Shown in pieces: positions 19,313-32,850 of a stretch of 64,000 nt of DNA; the first letter of the stretch is position 1; the number at the start of each line of letters is the position of its first letter. Position numbers and translations under genes: made by a program. This stretch comes from Loktanella sp. M215. Its GTDB lineage: Bacteria; Pseudomonadota; Alphaproteobacteria; Rhodobacterales; Rhodobacteraceae. The notes under the pieces were generated by a model. It made no database searches, was not told the origin of the DNA, and was given only the letters and a program-made list of their open reading frames with translations. The stretch lies in assembly GCF_021735925.1 (NCBI RefSeq), contig NZ_WMEA01000001.1:3941089-4005088 (forward strand), given 5' to 3'.

Positions 19313-19326
19313 CTGATCGACATCAG
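19313..19326. promoter_or_regulatory. Fnr-type dyad, site 1
   Basis: CTGAT-CGAC-ATCAG, a perfect dyad with the Crp/Fnr TGA-N6-TCA core. It lies 74 bases from the small minus-strand gene and 71 bases from the Crp/Fnr regulator start, in the middle of the divergent promoter region. Three similar sites precede the BON ORF, phaC and atpD. Confidence 0.6.
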
Positions 19327-19396
19327 GATCGTCCTTCAGACTTGCCGCTAAATACGATGTAACCTGTCCGGGCACGCCGCGACCGGAACCGAAAGA

Positions 19397-20134
19397 ATGC
19401 CGATGTACAGCCATCACAGTCCGCTGACCCGCAAATTGGGCAATTTCGTCGCGTTGAACGAGGCCGAGCTGGACATCCTCGACGGCTTGCACCAGCGCAG
19501 GCGGTCATTTGTGGCCGGGCGCGATCTGGTGCATCAGGGGCAGCTCCGCTCTGCCGCGTATATTCTGGCCGAGGGCTGGGTCTGTTCGTACAAGCTGCTG
19601 CGCGACGGCACACGGCAGATCGTGGATTTCCAGATTCCGGGCGATTTTCTGGGGCTGCGGTCCGTCCTGTTCCGCACCGCTGACCATAACATCGAACCGA
19701 TCACCCCGGTCGAAGCCTCCGAGGTGCTGAGCAGCGAGTTGCTGCATGCCTTTGCCGAAACGCCGCGCCTTGCGACCGCCGTGCTCTGGGCCGCGTCGCG
19801 GGACGAGGCGATGGTCGTCGAACACCTTGTGGGCATCGGGCGGCGCAATGCGCTGGAACGCACGGCGCATCTGCTGCTGGAGCTGAACGCCCGGCTTGTC
19901 CTTGTCGGCCATGCCACGCGCGAAGGTTTCGCCTGCCCGCTGACGCAATACCATCTGGCCGACGCACTGGGGCTGAGTGCCGTCCACATCAACCGCGTCC
20001 TGCGCGAGTTGCGCGAAAGCCGGTTGCTGACCTTCCACAGGGGACAGGTCGAGATCCTTGATTTCGACGGTCTGGTCGATCTGGCGGAGTTCGATTTCGA
20101 CTATCTTGATCAGGACGGGCCACTGCTGCGCTAG
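19397..20134 (+). CDS. Crp/Fnr-family transcriptional regulator
   Basis: Transcription factor of 245 residues. An N-terminal cyclic-nucleotide-binding-like domain (about 25-145, with the IVDFQIPGDFLGL segment) is followed by a long dimerisation helix and a C-terminal winged helix (LTQYHLADALGLSAVHINRVL). The N-terminal Cys cluster of FNR is absent (only two isolated Cys), so it should not carry an Fe-S cluster. It probably acts downstream of another sensor, as FixK-like proteins do. A second ATG at 19403 is an equally good start. Confidence 0.88.
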   Translation: MPMYSHHSPLTRKLGNFVALNEAELDILDGLHQRRRSFVAGRDLVHQGQLRSAAYILAEGWVCSYKLLRDGTRQIVDFQIPGDFLGLRSVLFRTADHNIEPITPVEASEVLSSELLHAFAETPRLATAVLWAASRDEAMVVEHLVGIGRRNALERTAHLLLELNARLVLVGHATREGFACPLTQYHLADALGLSAVHINRVLRELRESRLLTFHRGQVEILDFDGLVDLAEFDFDYLDQDGPLLR

Positions 20135-20163
20135 TCGCAGCCGCGGGATGATCGGGTGACCGG

Positions 20164-20844
20164 TCACGCCGTCTGACGCTGCGCGGGCACCGTCAGCCGG
20201 ACGGTCAGACCCGCCGGGTCCGAAAGATAGGCCGCGGTGCCGCCAACCTGCGCCAGCAGACGTTCGACGATCCGCAGGCCCAGACCCTGCCCGGCCTTCG
20301 GGGCTGAATTGGGGGCCAGTCCCGGCCCGTAATCGCGGACCGATACCTCGATCATCGCATCCGCCAAGGGGCGGCAAGACACCAGCAGGGCCACCTTGCC
20401 CGCGCTGTCGCGGGCGTGCTTGATCGCGTTCGTCATCACCTCTGTCACGATCTGCGTGACCGGCAGCAGGTGGTCCGACGACAGCGCACAGCCCGGCCGG
20501 AACGCGCGCCGGATCGTCAGGTCGTCGCCGCCCACCGACTGCAGCGCCGTGCAGACAGACCCCAGGTAGGCCGGCAGATCCACCGGACCGCGCGATCCGT
20601 GCCCCGCCAGCATGCGGTGCAGATCCGCCACCGCGTTGATCTGGACATCGACCGCATTGATCAAAAGCAGCGCATCCCGCGCGGTCAGACCCTTGCCCTG
20701 CTTGACCATCGCCCGGGATTTCAGGCGGGCATAGCCGGACAGCATGGCCAGATGGTTGGCGATCCTGTGGTCGGCCTCGGTCAGGCGGTCGCAGGTGTTG
20801 CAAGCCGCAAAGTGTTGATCGTCCAGCGTCATCGCAGCGTTCAT
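20164..20844 (-). CDS. Sensorless histidine kinase-like protein
   Basis: A 226-residue protein with a HisKA_2-like dimerisation/phosphoacceptor segment (ADHRIANHLAMLSGYARL, His near residue 23-29) and a C-terminal HATPase domain. The N box is EVMTNAIKHA, the G1 box is VRDYGPGLA and the G2 box is GQGLGLRIV. No sensory or membrane domain is present. A CNTC motif near the N-terminus could bind metal or sense redox (speculative). It may be a cytosolic kinase that takes signals from a partner. No response regulator is adjacent. Confidence 0.8.
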   Translation of the reverse strand: MNAAMTLDDQHFAACNTCDRLTEADHRIANHLAMLSGYARLKSRAMVKQGKGLTARDALLLINAVDVQINAVADLHRMLAGHGSRGPVDLPAYLGSVCTALQSVGGDDLTIRRAFRPGCALSSDHLLPVTQIVTEVMTNAIKHARDSAGKVALLVSCRPLADAMIEVSVRDYGPGLAPNSAPKAGQGLGLRIVERLLAQVGGTAAYLSDPAGLTVRLTVPAQRQTA

Positions 20845-20869
20845 GCCTAGTCCCCCGGTGTGGTGGGCC

Positions 20870-30657: not shown

Positions 30658-30941
30658 TCCGCGTTCATCCACGCCCATGCGGTCCAGCCGCCCAGCCCCA
30701 GACCCAGCATCAGGCCGGGCGCCGTCCAGAACAGCCCACCGCCCGTCCGCGCATCCAGCCAGCGCCCGCCGAACAGGCCGACCAGCATGGGTGCGACGAT
30801 CATCCAGCCCAGCACACCGATCTGCGCCAGCCTGCGCCCGACCGAGTCTTGACCATCCCGCAGCCAGCGCCCGTGGCGGTCGCGGCGCAGCCGCGCCTGC
30901 TGCACGAGGGGGTCGTCGTCCGGGGCGTCATCGGGGGTCAT
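30654..30941 (-). CDS. atpQ: N-ATPase AtpQ subunit (AtpI-like)
   Basis: Protein of 95 residues with a charged N-terminus ([10 protein letters not shown]) and two membrane helices (about 42-62 and 70-90), as in AtpI/AtpQ assembly factors. GLFGGRWLDARTGGG lies between the helices and is typical of this family. It overlaps atpC and atpR by ATGA. Confidence 0.85.
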   Translation of the reverse strand: MTPDDAPDDDPLVQQARLRRDRHGRWLRDGQDSVGRRLAQIGVLGWMIVAPMLVGLFGGRWLDARTGGGLFWTAPGLMLGLGLGGWTAWAWMNAE

Positions 30942-31342
30942 CGGAACTCTCCGGTATCGGGGCTGGCGGACAGGCGGCTGACCATCCGGCGGATCGCGTT
31001 CAGTTGCAGGGCGGTCGCGGCGCTGCGATCCACCCGTTCCGCATCGGCGTCGGCGCGAAAGCGGGCCAGCACGGCGGCGTCGAGGGTGGCAAGGTCGTCG
31101 CCCGGCACAGCCTCCGGCGTGGCGATGGCAACATCGCCGTCGACGCTCAGCACGCCGCCGCGCACGGCGCAGAACAAGGTCACCCCTGCGGTGGTCCAAG
31201 AGACGACAGAGATCGCGAGCGCCGTCAGGAACGGCGCGTGACCGGGCAGGATGCCAAAGCTGCCGCTGGCATCCTCGGCGGTCATGCGGTCGATGCCGGT
31301 GGTCACGACGACGGTCAGCGGGGTGACGATGCGCAGGTTCAT
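30938..31342 (-). CDS. atpC: N-ATPase epsilon subunit
   Basis: F1 epsilon subunit, 134 residues. The N-terminal beta sandwich contains [16 protein letters not shown] and the GGVLSVDGD strand, and the C-terminal helical part covers about 85-130. It overlaps atpD by 4 bases and atpQ by ATGA. Confidence 0.92.
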
Positions 31343-32778
31343 GCGGCAGCCTCGGCGGGGGCCGCCTTGGCGTTCTTGGCTGCGGCATCCGCCAGCGTGC
31401 CCACCATGTAAAGCGCGCTTTCATCCCAATCGTCCGCCGCGCCGTCAAGGATCGCGCGGCACCCCGCGAGCGTGTCGGCCAGCGTCACGCGCGCGCCGGG
31501 AAGGCCGGTAAAGGCTTCTGTCACCATGAAGGGCTGCGTCAGGAACCGCTGCAACCGCCGCGCGCGACCGACGATCTGCCGGTCCGCCTGCCCCAGCTCC
31601 TCCACCCCCAGCAGGGAAATGATATCGGTCAGTTCGCGGAACCGTGCCAAGGCCTGACGCACGTCCTCGGCCACGCGGTAATGCGCCTCACCCACCACCA
31701 GCGGATCAAGCAGCATCGACGACGACGCCAGCGGATCGATGGCGGGATAGAAGCCTTCCGCCGCCTGCGCGCGGGACAGCACGATGACGCAGTCCATGTG
31801 GCTGGAAATCGTGGTGACGGCGGGGTCGGTGAAATCGTCGGCGGGCACGTAAACCGCCTGAATGGCGGTGACCGACGACCCGGCGACGCTCGCGATGCGT
31901 TCCTGCAGGGCCGCGACCTCTGTCGCCAGTGTCGGCTGATAGCCCACGCGCGACGGCAGGCGGCCCAGCAGGCTCGATACCTCTGCCCCCGCCTGCACAA
32001 AGCGGAACACGTTATCCATCAGCAGCAGCACGTTGCGGTGCTGCGTGTCGCGAAAGTATTCGGACATCGTCAGCGCCGTCATCGGCGCCCGCCAGCGCGC
32101 ACCGGGGGGTTCATTCATCTGGCCGTAGACCAGCACCGTCTGGTCCAGCACGCCAGAGGCCTGCATCTCTGTCAGCAATTCATGCCCCTCGCGCGAGCGT
32201 TCGCCGACACCGGCAAAGACCGAGATGCCGTCGTAGCCTTCGACCATCGCGCGGATCAGTTCCATCACCAGCACGGTCTTGCCGACACCCGCGCCGCCGA
32301 ACATCGCGGCCTTGCCGCCTTGGGCCATGGGGGTCAGCAGGTCGATGACCTTGATGCCGGTCGCGAAGACCTCTGTGGTGCGGGTCTGGTTGCGCAGGGC
32401 GGGCGGGGCCGCGTGGATCGACCGGCGCGGCGTGTCCGCAGGCAGCGCCGGGCCGTCGTCGCGCACCTGCCCTACGACATCCAGCAGGCGCCCCATGATC
32501 GCAGGACCGACGGGCACGGTGACAGGCCCAGCGCCCGCGCGTACCGCCGTGCCCCGCGACAGGCCGGCGGTCGCCTGAAAGGCCACGGCGCGCACGGTCT
32601 GGGGGTCAAGATGGCTTTGCACCTCCAGCGTCAGCAGCCCGCCCGCGTCGCGCTCGATCGTCAGCGCATCGTTGATCGCGGGCAGATGCCCCACAAAGGC
32701 GACATCGACCACGGCCCCGCGCACCGCAAGCACGGTACCGGTCGCCAAGTCGGGCGGAGAGGCAGGTTGATCGCGCAC
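31339..32778 (-). CDS. atpD: N-ATPase beta subunit
   Basis: Catalytic F1 subunit, 479 residues. Walker A is [10 protein letters not shown], followed by [15 protein letters not shown] with the catalytic Glu, and the [12 protein letters not shown] segment. It is the first gene of the atpDCQRBEFAG operon, the gene order that defines N-ATPases. A housekeeping F1Fo operon with delta would be ordered differently and is presumably elsewhere. An Fnr-type site lies 59 bases upstream. Confidence 0.94.
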
Positions 32779-32836
32779 GGGCAGACACTCCGGACCGGGA
32801 TGCGACCATGTCTGACGATCCGGGGGGCCAGTGTCG

Positions 32837-32850
32837 TTGACATGGATCAG
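32837..32850. promoter_or_regulatory. Fnr-type dyad, site 4
   Basis: TTGAC-ATGG-ATCAG, with the TGA-N6-TCA core, 59 bases upstream of atpD and 126 bases upstream of the divergent monooxygenase gene. It matches sites 1-3 in the right half ATCAG. Confidence 0.5.

Follow-up and report, generated by a model that had tools for sequence, protein, structure and literature searches.

The nearest described systems to which the locus considered here can be compared are the class II promoters of FnrL and other FNR proteins in Rhodobacteraceae, typified by those of the cbb3 oxidase, and the low-oxygen-activated locus of Burkholderia cenocepacia, a low-oxygen island with polyhydroxybutyrate (PHB) and stress genes. 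Class II activators of the FNR/CRP type have the dyad centered at -41.5, with T-12 and A-11 of the -10 box at +29 and +30 from the dyad center. The window analyzed here, a 64,000-nucleotide stretch of the 5.2-Mb genome of Loktanella sp. M215 (G000:C1:3941089-4005088), contains a minus-strand island with the gene order sodium-type ATPase (N-ATPase) genes, phaC, fabI, a fused MaoC-phosphate acetyltransferase, ackA and a small histidine kinase; past the histidine kinase, at the end of the island, there are a plus-strand regulator of the Crp/Fnr superfamily (hereafter Crp) and a divergent gene for a small protein. Four FNR-like dyads are found upstream of these genes, and their comparison across genomes suggests a two-layer organization as the probable one, with FnrL acting over the island and Crp forming a separate, probably self-regulating layer. 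The dyads, and the -10-like boxes that follow three of them, are:

19313..19326, plus strand: dyad of the crp promoter, CTGATCGACATCAG, with the form of the Crp-clade operator
19349..19354, plus strand: -10-like box TAAATA, 22 bases past the crp dyad
21163..21176, minus strand: dyad of the histidine kinase (or "BON") promoter, CTGATCCGTATCAA on the gene strand
21135..21140, minus strand: -10-like box TAAAAG, 22 bases past the histidine kinase dyad
26343..26356, minus strand: dyad of the phaC promoter, CTGACCTGGATCAA on the gene strand, recurring in orthologous promoters
26315..26320, minus strand: -10-like box TAACAC, 22 bases past the phaC dyad
32837..32850, minus strand: dyad of the atpD promoter, CTGATCCATGTCAA on the gene strand, without TA at the class II offset

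The initial annotation reported four 14-mers at 19313, 21163, 26343 and 32837, located 59 to 140 bases from the start codons of the genes it named, and both the sites and the distances are correct. Its further statement, that the right half is (A/G)TCAG in all four, holds only when every site is read on the plus strand and fails on the gene strand: there, the left half CTGA(T/C) is common to all four dyads, and the gene-proximal half is TCAA at the histidine kinase/BON, phaC and atpD sites and TCAG at crp alone. The pattern YTGAYN4RTCAR occurs 171 times in the genome versus 27 times for the reversed pattern. The 1,098 bp outside called genes between 19243 and 32950, a total that includes a stretch without a gene call between atpI and atpD, contain four such sites versus an expectation of 0.04 from the genome-wide frequency, or of 0.30 when all 171 sites are placed in an assumed 12% non-coding share (P from 7e-8 to 3e-4, values that are indicative given that the pattern was composed after the sites were known). 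When two mismatches are allowed, 88 look-alikes are found over the whole window versus 40 in shuffles, which counts against the significance of the sites. With the strict pattern, the dyads are clustered above the genome background, contrary to the alternative considered in the initial annotation, namely that such sites are as frequent in random intergenic DNA. The exact pattern CTGATCNRNAGCAG is present at low counts, 0 to 7 per genome, in Crp-bearing and Crp-lacking genomes alike, too few to be informative about an excess in the former. Judged by their behavior in sequence comparison, the four dyads are best read as promoter elements.

At three of the four dyads, those of crp, the histidine kinase and phaC, a TA dinucleotide follows on the gene strand at a distance of exactly 22 bases, which is the position expected for T-12 A-11, so that these dyads are at the class II -41.5 spacing. 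Compared with the TTGA-N6-TCAA-like dyads of FNR class II promoters, the phaC and histidine kinase sites (CTGA-N6-TCAA) are one base off, in the distal half, and have the exact spacing; the atpD site lacks this spacing. The dyad-N22-TA arrangement occurs 17 times in the genome versus 3 times for the reversed pattern, and three of the 17 are in this island. The arrangement is likewise found before a COX1-family gene adjacent to fnrL and a FixG_C gene, by inference ccoN and ccoG, respectively, as well as before Usp, cupredoxin-like and CMD genes and a gene for a 2-oxoacid dehydrogenase subunit; one more site adjoins fnrL, and the remaining seven have no clear target, with a 38-mer common to two of these. 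That this common pattern precedes oxidase genes, and that no specific link to a paralogue was found, makes it highly improbable that the hybrid sites are read by another Crp/Fnr paralogue (DNR/NnrR-like) in response to, for example, nitric oxide; candidates for such a role do exist among the 12 HTH_Crp_2 matches over the cut-off in the genome, two of which are pieces of broken Crp copies.

The dyads recur in orthologous loci. Genes in related genomes, some of which are drafts, were identified by simple open reading frame (ORF) calling and tblastn, and expected values were obtained from 200 rounds of shuffling; L291 and L310, which contain the Puniceibacterium island again, and L275, from the genome of L029, were dropped from the counts of spacing, recurrence and site ends. 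Among 45 pta-linked phaC genes with sufficient upstream sequence, YTGA-N6-TCAR is present within 300 bases in 25 (0.6 expected, shuffle maximum 5), and in 14 loci the dyad is accompanied by the class II TA (0.005 expected, shuffle maximum 1). For atpD, the dyad is found in 14 of 28 regions (0.42 expected, shuffle maximum 4) and the combination with TA in 4 (0.005 expected). In the closer phaC loci, TA is at +29 in 13 of 17 sites, every other offset accounting for at most 3; sites less than 50 bases from the start codon were excluded from this count, from the corresponding one for atpD and from that for the orthologous crp sites. The proposal that these dyads are of the Fnr type is supported, and the comparison of orthologous islands that accompanied this proposal in the initial annotation turns out in its favor for both phaC and atpD.

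The dyad of the histidine kinase has a counterpart, CTGATCCGCATCAG, at L135:8719, before the histidine kinase of the same-genus genome G006, where the class II offset is not occupied by TA. The initial annotation assigned this dyad to a "BON ORF"; this candidate was rejected because the ORF, for which Pfam gives no match, is missing from G006, the sister genome, in which the dyad precedes the histidine kinase. The divergent FMO-like gene (32977-34776) was considered as a target of the atpD dyad, but on the strand of this gene there is no TA at the class II offset; among the loci examined, this gene is present in only one other, L136, which itself has no atpD match.

The identity of the regulator is indicated primarily by genomes in which the sites and Crp are dissociated. 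The sites upstream of phaC are present in three close relatives, Pseudorhodobacter (G149; CTGACGCAGATCAA), Puniceibacterium (G150; CTGATTCAGATCAA) and Oceaniglobus (G151; CTGACCCAGATCAA), and atpD sites are found in G149 and G150 as well. No Crp orthologue was detected in these three genomes (none at E 1e-20, or a 28% match only), although, with part of the genomes being drafts, this absence could reflect a gap; G067, which appears to be the same Puniceibacterium, is similarly devoid of a Crp orthologue. FnrL is over the model cut-off in all three, with 459, 319 and 361 bits in G149, G150 and G151, respectively. Given that the phaC sites are present where Crp was not found and FnrL is, the phaC and histidine kinase dyads, and probably the atpD dyad, are most likely FnrL/FNR boxes.

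These genomes also run counter to the model put forward in the initial annotation, in which all four dyads are recognized by the local Crp and the island is under its direct control; this model is not supported, and we consider it unlikely. A classifier was built from a matrix of 44 distinct Crp-cassette operators and a matrix of 26 FNR-type sites, positive scores denoting Crp and negative scores FNR, and none of the 44 and none of the 26 sites were misplaced in a leave-one-out test. In the window, the scores are +9.5 for crp, -3.0 for the histidine kinase, -5.5 for phaC and -3.6 for atpD; the histidine kinase dyad of G006 scores +9.1. Training omitted four distinct sequences on the FNR side and at least three on the Crp side, among them the two that match window sites exactly; when five of the omitted sequences are added back, no window score changes by more than 0.3. 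A single motif for all four dyads was rejected, as the crp-operator matrix puts the histidine kinase and phaC sites far under the crp site; the atpD dyad is not among the 16 window matches listed for this matrix. The window phaC, histidine kinase and atpD dyads end in TCAA, an ending that is found in 0 of 41 crp operators. It is this difference between TCAA and TCAG and, above all, the Crp-lacking genomes that assign the window sites to FNR. Because most of the difference between the two motifs lies in the last base, they possibly overlap; a contribution of Crp at the phaC, histidine kinase and atpD promoters is possible as well, given that these sites, the last base apart, also fit the Crp motif.

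Several observations weigh against the assignment to FnrL, and part of these speak for a direct role of Crp. The training sets of the classifier were hand-picked, with patterns that fix TGA-N6-TCA for FNR or the AG end for c2 (a cassette gene described below), so that the separation is partly by construction. When the last base is ignored, all four window dyads, which share the gene-strand CTGA(Y), score towards Crp (crp +3.8, histidine kinase +3.4, phaC +1.0, atpD +2.9). Of the phaC or atpD sites in Crp-bearing genomes, 4 of 16 end in TCAG, whereas none of the 27 such sites in Crp-lacking genomes has this ending (P 0.015, for sites that are related and not independent), and Crp co-occurs with N-ATPase, being present in 13 of 24 N-ATPase genomes versus 19 of 125 others (P 1e-4). 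Furthermore, in three cases where crp is located near N-ATPase or phaC genes, the respective site is of the Crp form (atpD of G091, +6.4; atpD of G080, +7.0; phaC of Vreelandella, +3.8). The FnrL model, applied to 15 genomes, gives matches at E 1e-15 in all 15 and exceeds the cut-off in 8. The dyad is missing from 20 of the 45 phaC and 14 of the 28 atpD regions, and TA is missing in 11 of the 25 dyad-bearing phaC regions; at atpD, TA is at the class II offset in 4 of 15 sites, and the window site is not one of these. Finally, the histidine kinase dyad was detected in the window and G006 alone, and no clear dyad was found at the more distant histidine kinases (27-40% identity) in L269, L170 and L273.

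The genes of the island and its flank are:

18943..19242, minus strand: small protein of 99 amino acids, divergent from crp, no Pfam match
19397..20134, plus strand: Crp/Fnr-superfamily regulator of 245 amino acids, with PF13545 and PF00027, Fe-S cysteines absent, helix SAVHINRVLR
20164..20844, minus strand: histidine kinase with HisKA_2 and HATPase_c (Pfam; query 20164-20850)
20899..21023, minus strand: doubtful 41-amino acid ORF, the "BON" of the initial annotation, no Pfam match, absent in L135 (G006)
21199..22410, minus strand: ackA, acetate kinase (Pfam)
22362..23777, minus strand: fused MaoC-phosphate acetyltransferase (Pfam; NF006045)
23746..24510, minus strand: fabI-type enoyl-ACP (acyl carrier protein) reductase (Pfam and NCBIfam models)
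24507..26267, minus strand: phaC, polyhydroxyalkanoate (PHA) synthase (Pfam; class I model 518 bits, under the 623-bit cut-off)
26377..32778, minus strand: N-ATPase genes including AtpR, from atpD (31339-32778) through atpG (26377-27207)

The MaoC-like/phosphate acetyltransferase fusion ORF overlaps ackA and has relatives across many Proteobacteria, the closest named ones being those of Pseudorhodobacter, Puniceibacterium and Oceaniglobus. The small gene adjoins crp in 33 of 35 loci (L135-L169).

Orthologues of Crp (at least 64% identity) are present in 32 of 149 genomes of the family, one of them partial, with a 63% fragment in G031 excluded. In agreement with the initial annotation, Crp lacks the N-terminal Fe-S cysteines of FNR; its only cysteines are C63, which is kept in 39 of 45 orthologues, and C180, located just before the DNA-binding helices and kept in 44 of 45. 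Both FNRs of the same genome (L001 and L002) have the N-terminal cysteine cluster as well as the E..SR helix. One of these, L001 (G000:C4:123613-124290), is a second FNR that is encoded on a contig other than C1, where fnrL is located. Across the 45 aligned orthologues, the recognition helix of Crp is (S/T)A(V/I)H(V/I)NR, that is, V..NR versus E..SR in the FNRs of this genome, and of the three base-contact positions of the FNR helix, two differ in Crp. The NCBIfam Fnr model gives 63.2 bits for Crp versus the cut-off of 228, the FixK model gives 59 bits versus 300, and the score with the FnrL model is also far under the cut-off; among solved structures, the closest to Crp are those of an FNR and of FixK2 (PDB 4i2o, 62.6 bits). 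The absence of N-terminal Fe-S cysteines is a feature that Crp shares with the FixK family. FixK is also controlled by FixLJ; of this feature, only a histidine kinase gene adjoining crp is seen here. The recognition helix of FixK is the FNR-like E..SR, which Crp lacks, and with the low model score and the different operator, the FixK-like affiliation suggested in the initial annotation is not supported. By these sequence features, Crp is a separate clade without Fe-S oxygen sensing of the FNR kind. Two broken copies of Crp are found in the same genome: one (G000:C7:95657-96217 and 99366-99479; L170), in pieces about 3 kb apart, retains a degenerate upstream dyad, and the other (G000:C4:434948-435238; L171) is a fragment with an internal stop. 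In G091, roughly 2 kb separate a second FnrL-like gene (G091:C21:24888-25613, L224; 408 bits) from the crp orthologue that adjoins the N-ATPase genes.

Of 46 orthologous crp promoters, 41 contain the dyad, which is the most conserved stretch of the promoter, with the consensus CTGATCNANA(G/T)CAG; position 11 is G in 31 of 41 sites and the last base is G in all 41. The five promoters that deviate from the strict pattern are L150 (contig end), L160 and L161 (small partner not found), the broken L170 and L275 of Vreelandella (one mismatch); the set omits the 3-kb copies L105-L134 and L003, L029 and L201-L205, and the 46 rows include several from one genome. TA is at +29 in 13 of 41 sites, the top value among downstream offsets 7 to 55. 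A second conserved TA, at one offset 15-16 bases before the dyad center, is present in 30 of 41 sites; this TA would make the dyad coincide with the start site, which would suggest autorepression.

Beside crp, there is a recurrent cassette (L135-L169, L270; e.g., L136:10300-13300) that consists of the small gene, crp, k5, k6, divergent c2/c3, transglutaminase-like proteins and, sometimes, groEL. The k5 product is a short protein that starts with MTPEQ, and most of the cassette members have no Pfam match. Among the 35 loci L135-L169, c2 is present in 24 and groEL in 10. The dyad CTGA-N6-T(C/T/A)AG, on either strand, is found upstream of c2 in 25 of 25 cases, c3 in 22 of 23 (the c2/c3 intergenic region being common to both) and k5 in 18 of 20, compared with at most 3 in shuffles of any gene set; it is also found upstream of k11 (4 of 13), the small gene (8 of 39) and k10 (1 of 21), and is absent upstream of k4 (0 of 20), k6 (0 of 21), k7 (0 of 10), k8 (0 of 17), k9 (0 of 15) and groEL (0 of 9). 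Of the 15 c2 sites that lie no more than 110 bases from the start codon, 14 have TA at +29, and 17 of 18 k5 sites are of the CTAAC type with TA at or beside +29. No match to c2, c3 or k5 was found inside the window.

These operators bear on the possibility that FnrL alone controls everything, including crp, the crp operator being a variant FNR box that is not autoregulatory. The crp dyad of the window does fit the genome-wide dyad-N22-TA pattern, as the oxidase genes do. Yet the G at position 11 in 31 of 41 crp dyads breaks the TCA core, in what is the most conserved stretch of these promoters, and the c2 and k5 dyads include TTAG, TAAG or CTAA halves; accordingly, control by FnrL alone appears improbable.

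From the sites, their recurrence and spacing, and the presence or absence of the regulators in the genomes searched, we infer the bound protein, the sign of regulation and the low-oxygen signal, all three. Under the two-layer organization that we favor, an FNR protein, either FnrL (G000:C1:187.8-188.5 kb) or the second FNR, encoded on C4, would bind the phaC and histidine kinase dyads, and probably the atpD dyad, under low oxygen. At phaC and the histidine kinase, the predicted mode is class II activation from -41.5, by which phaC would be turned on together with fabI-pta-ackA. Crp would read a related, looser dyad (of the CTNAY-N4-RKNAG type) and probably controls its own promoter and, in relatives, the small-protein cassette. 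The crp dyad of the window is fully palindromic and might be recognized by FNR too; in that case, crp may be a second tier under FnrL. A broader evolutionary scenario can be proposed tentatively, as one that we find less probable than not. In this Crp/Fnr clade, which is represented in Rhodobacteraceae and some other Proteobacteria, the replacement of the glutamate of FNR (E209) by V might go with a looser operator, with CTNAY halves and a free third base; the clade would control itself and the unknown small-protein cassette; and in some genomes, N-ATPase and phaC promoters might have been captured from FnrL via a single A-to-G change (TCAA to TCAG), the hybrid sites of the window being intermediates.

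Altogether, the picture of a single local regulator for this island needs to be revised. PHA storage, the phosphotransacetylase-acetate kinase route and the sodium-type ATPase appear to share a predicted oxygen switch with a terminal oxidase, and a Crp/Fnr clade with an operator that overlaps that of FNR and yet differs from it would be a natural case in which related regulons may separate or swap promoters. Like the FnrL/FNR class II promoters of Rhodobacteraceae, the window has an FNR-like dyad followed, after 22 bases, by a -10-like box that starts with TA; unlike these promoters, it has hybrid CTGA...TCAA halves, and the predicted target is a PHA/phosphotransacetylase/N-ATPase island. Like FixK/FixK2 (PDB 4i2o), Crp belongs to the Crp/Fnr superfamily, lacks the N-terminal Fe-S cysteines and has one cysteine before the DNA-binding helices, whereas its helix is V..NR rather than E..SR, its score with the FixK model is under the cut-off and its operator is different. 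The phaC loci with the fused MaoC-phosphate acetyltransferase and TTGA-N6-TCAA dyads are also present in Burkholderiales relatives; set beside the locus of Burkholderia cenocepacia by its general description only, the island in the window additionally includes the N-ATPase and the distinct Crp clade.

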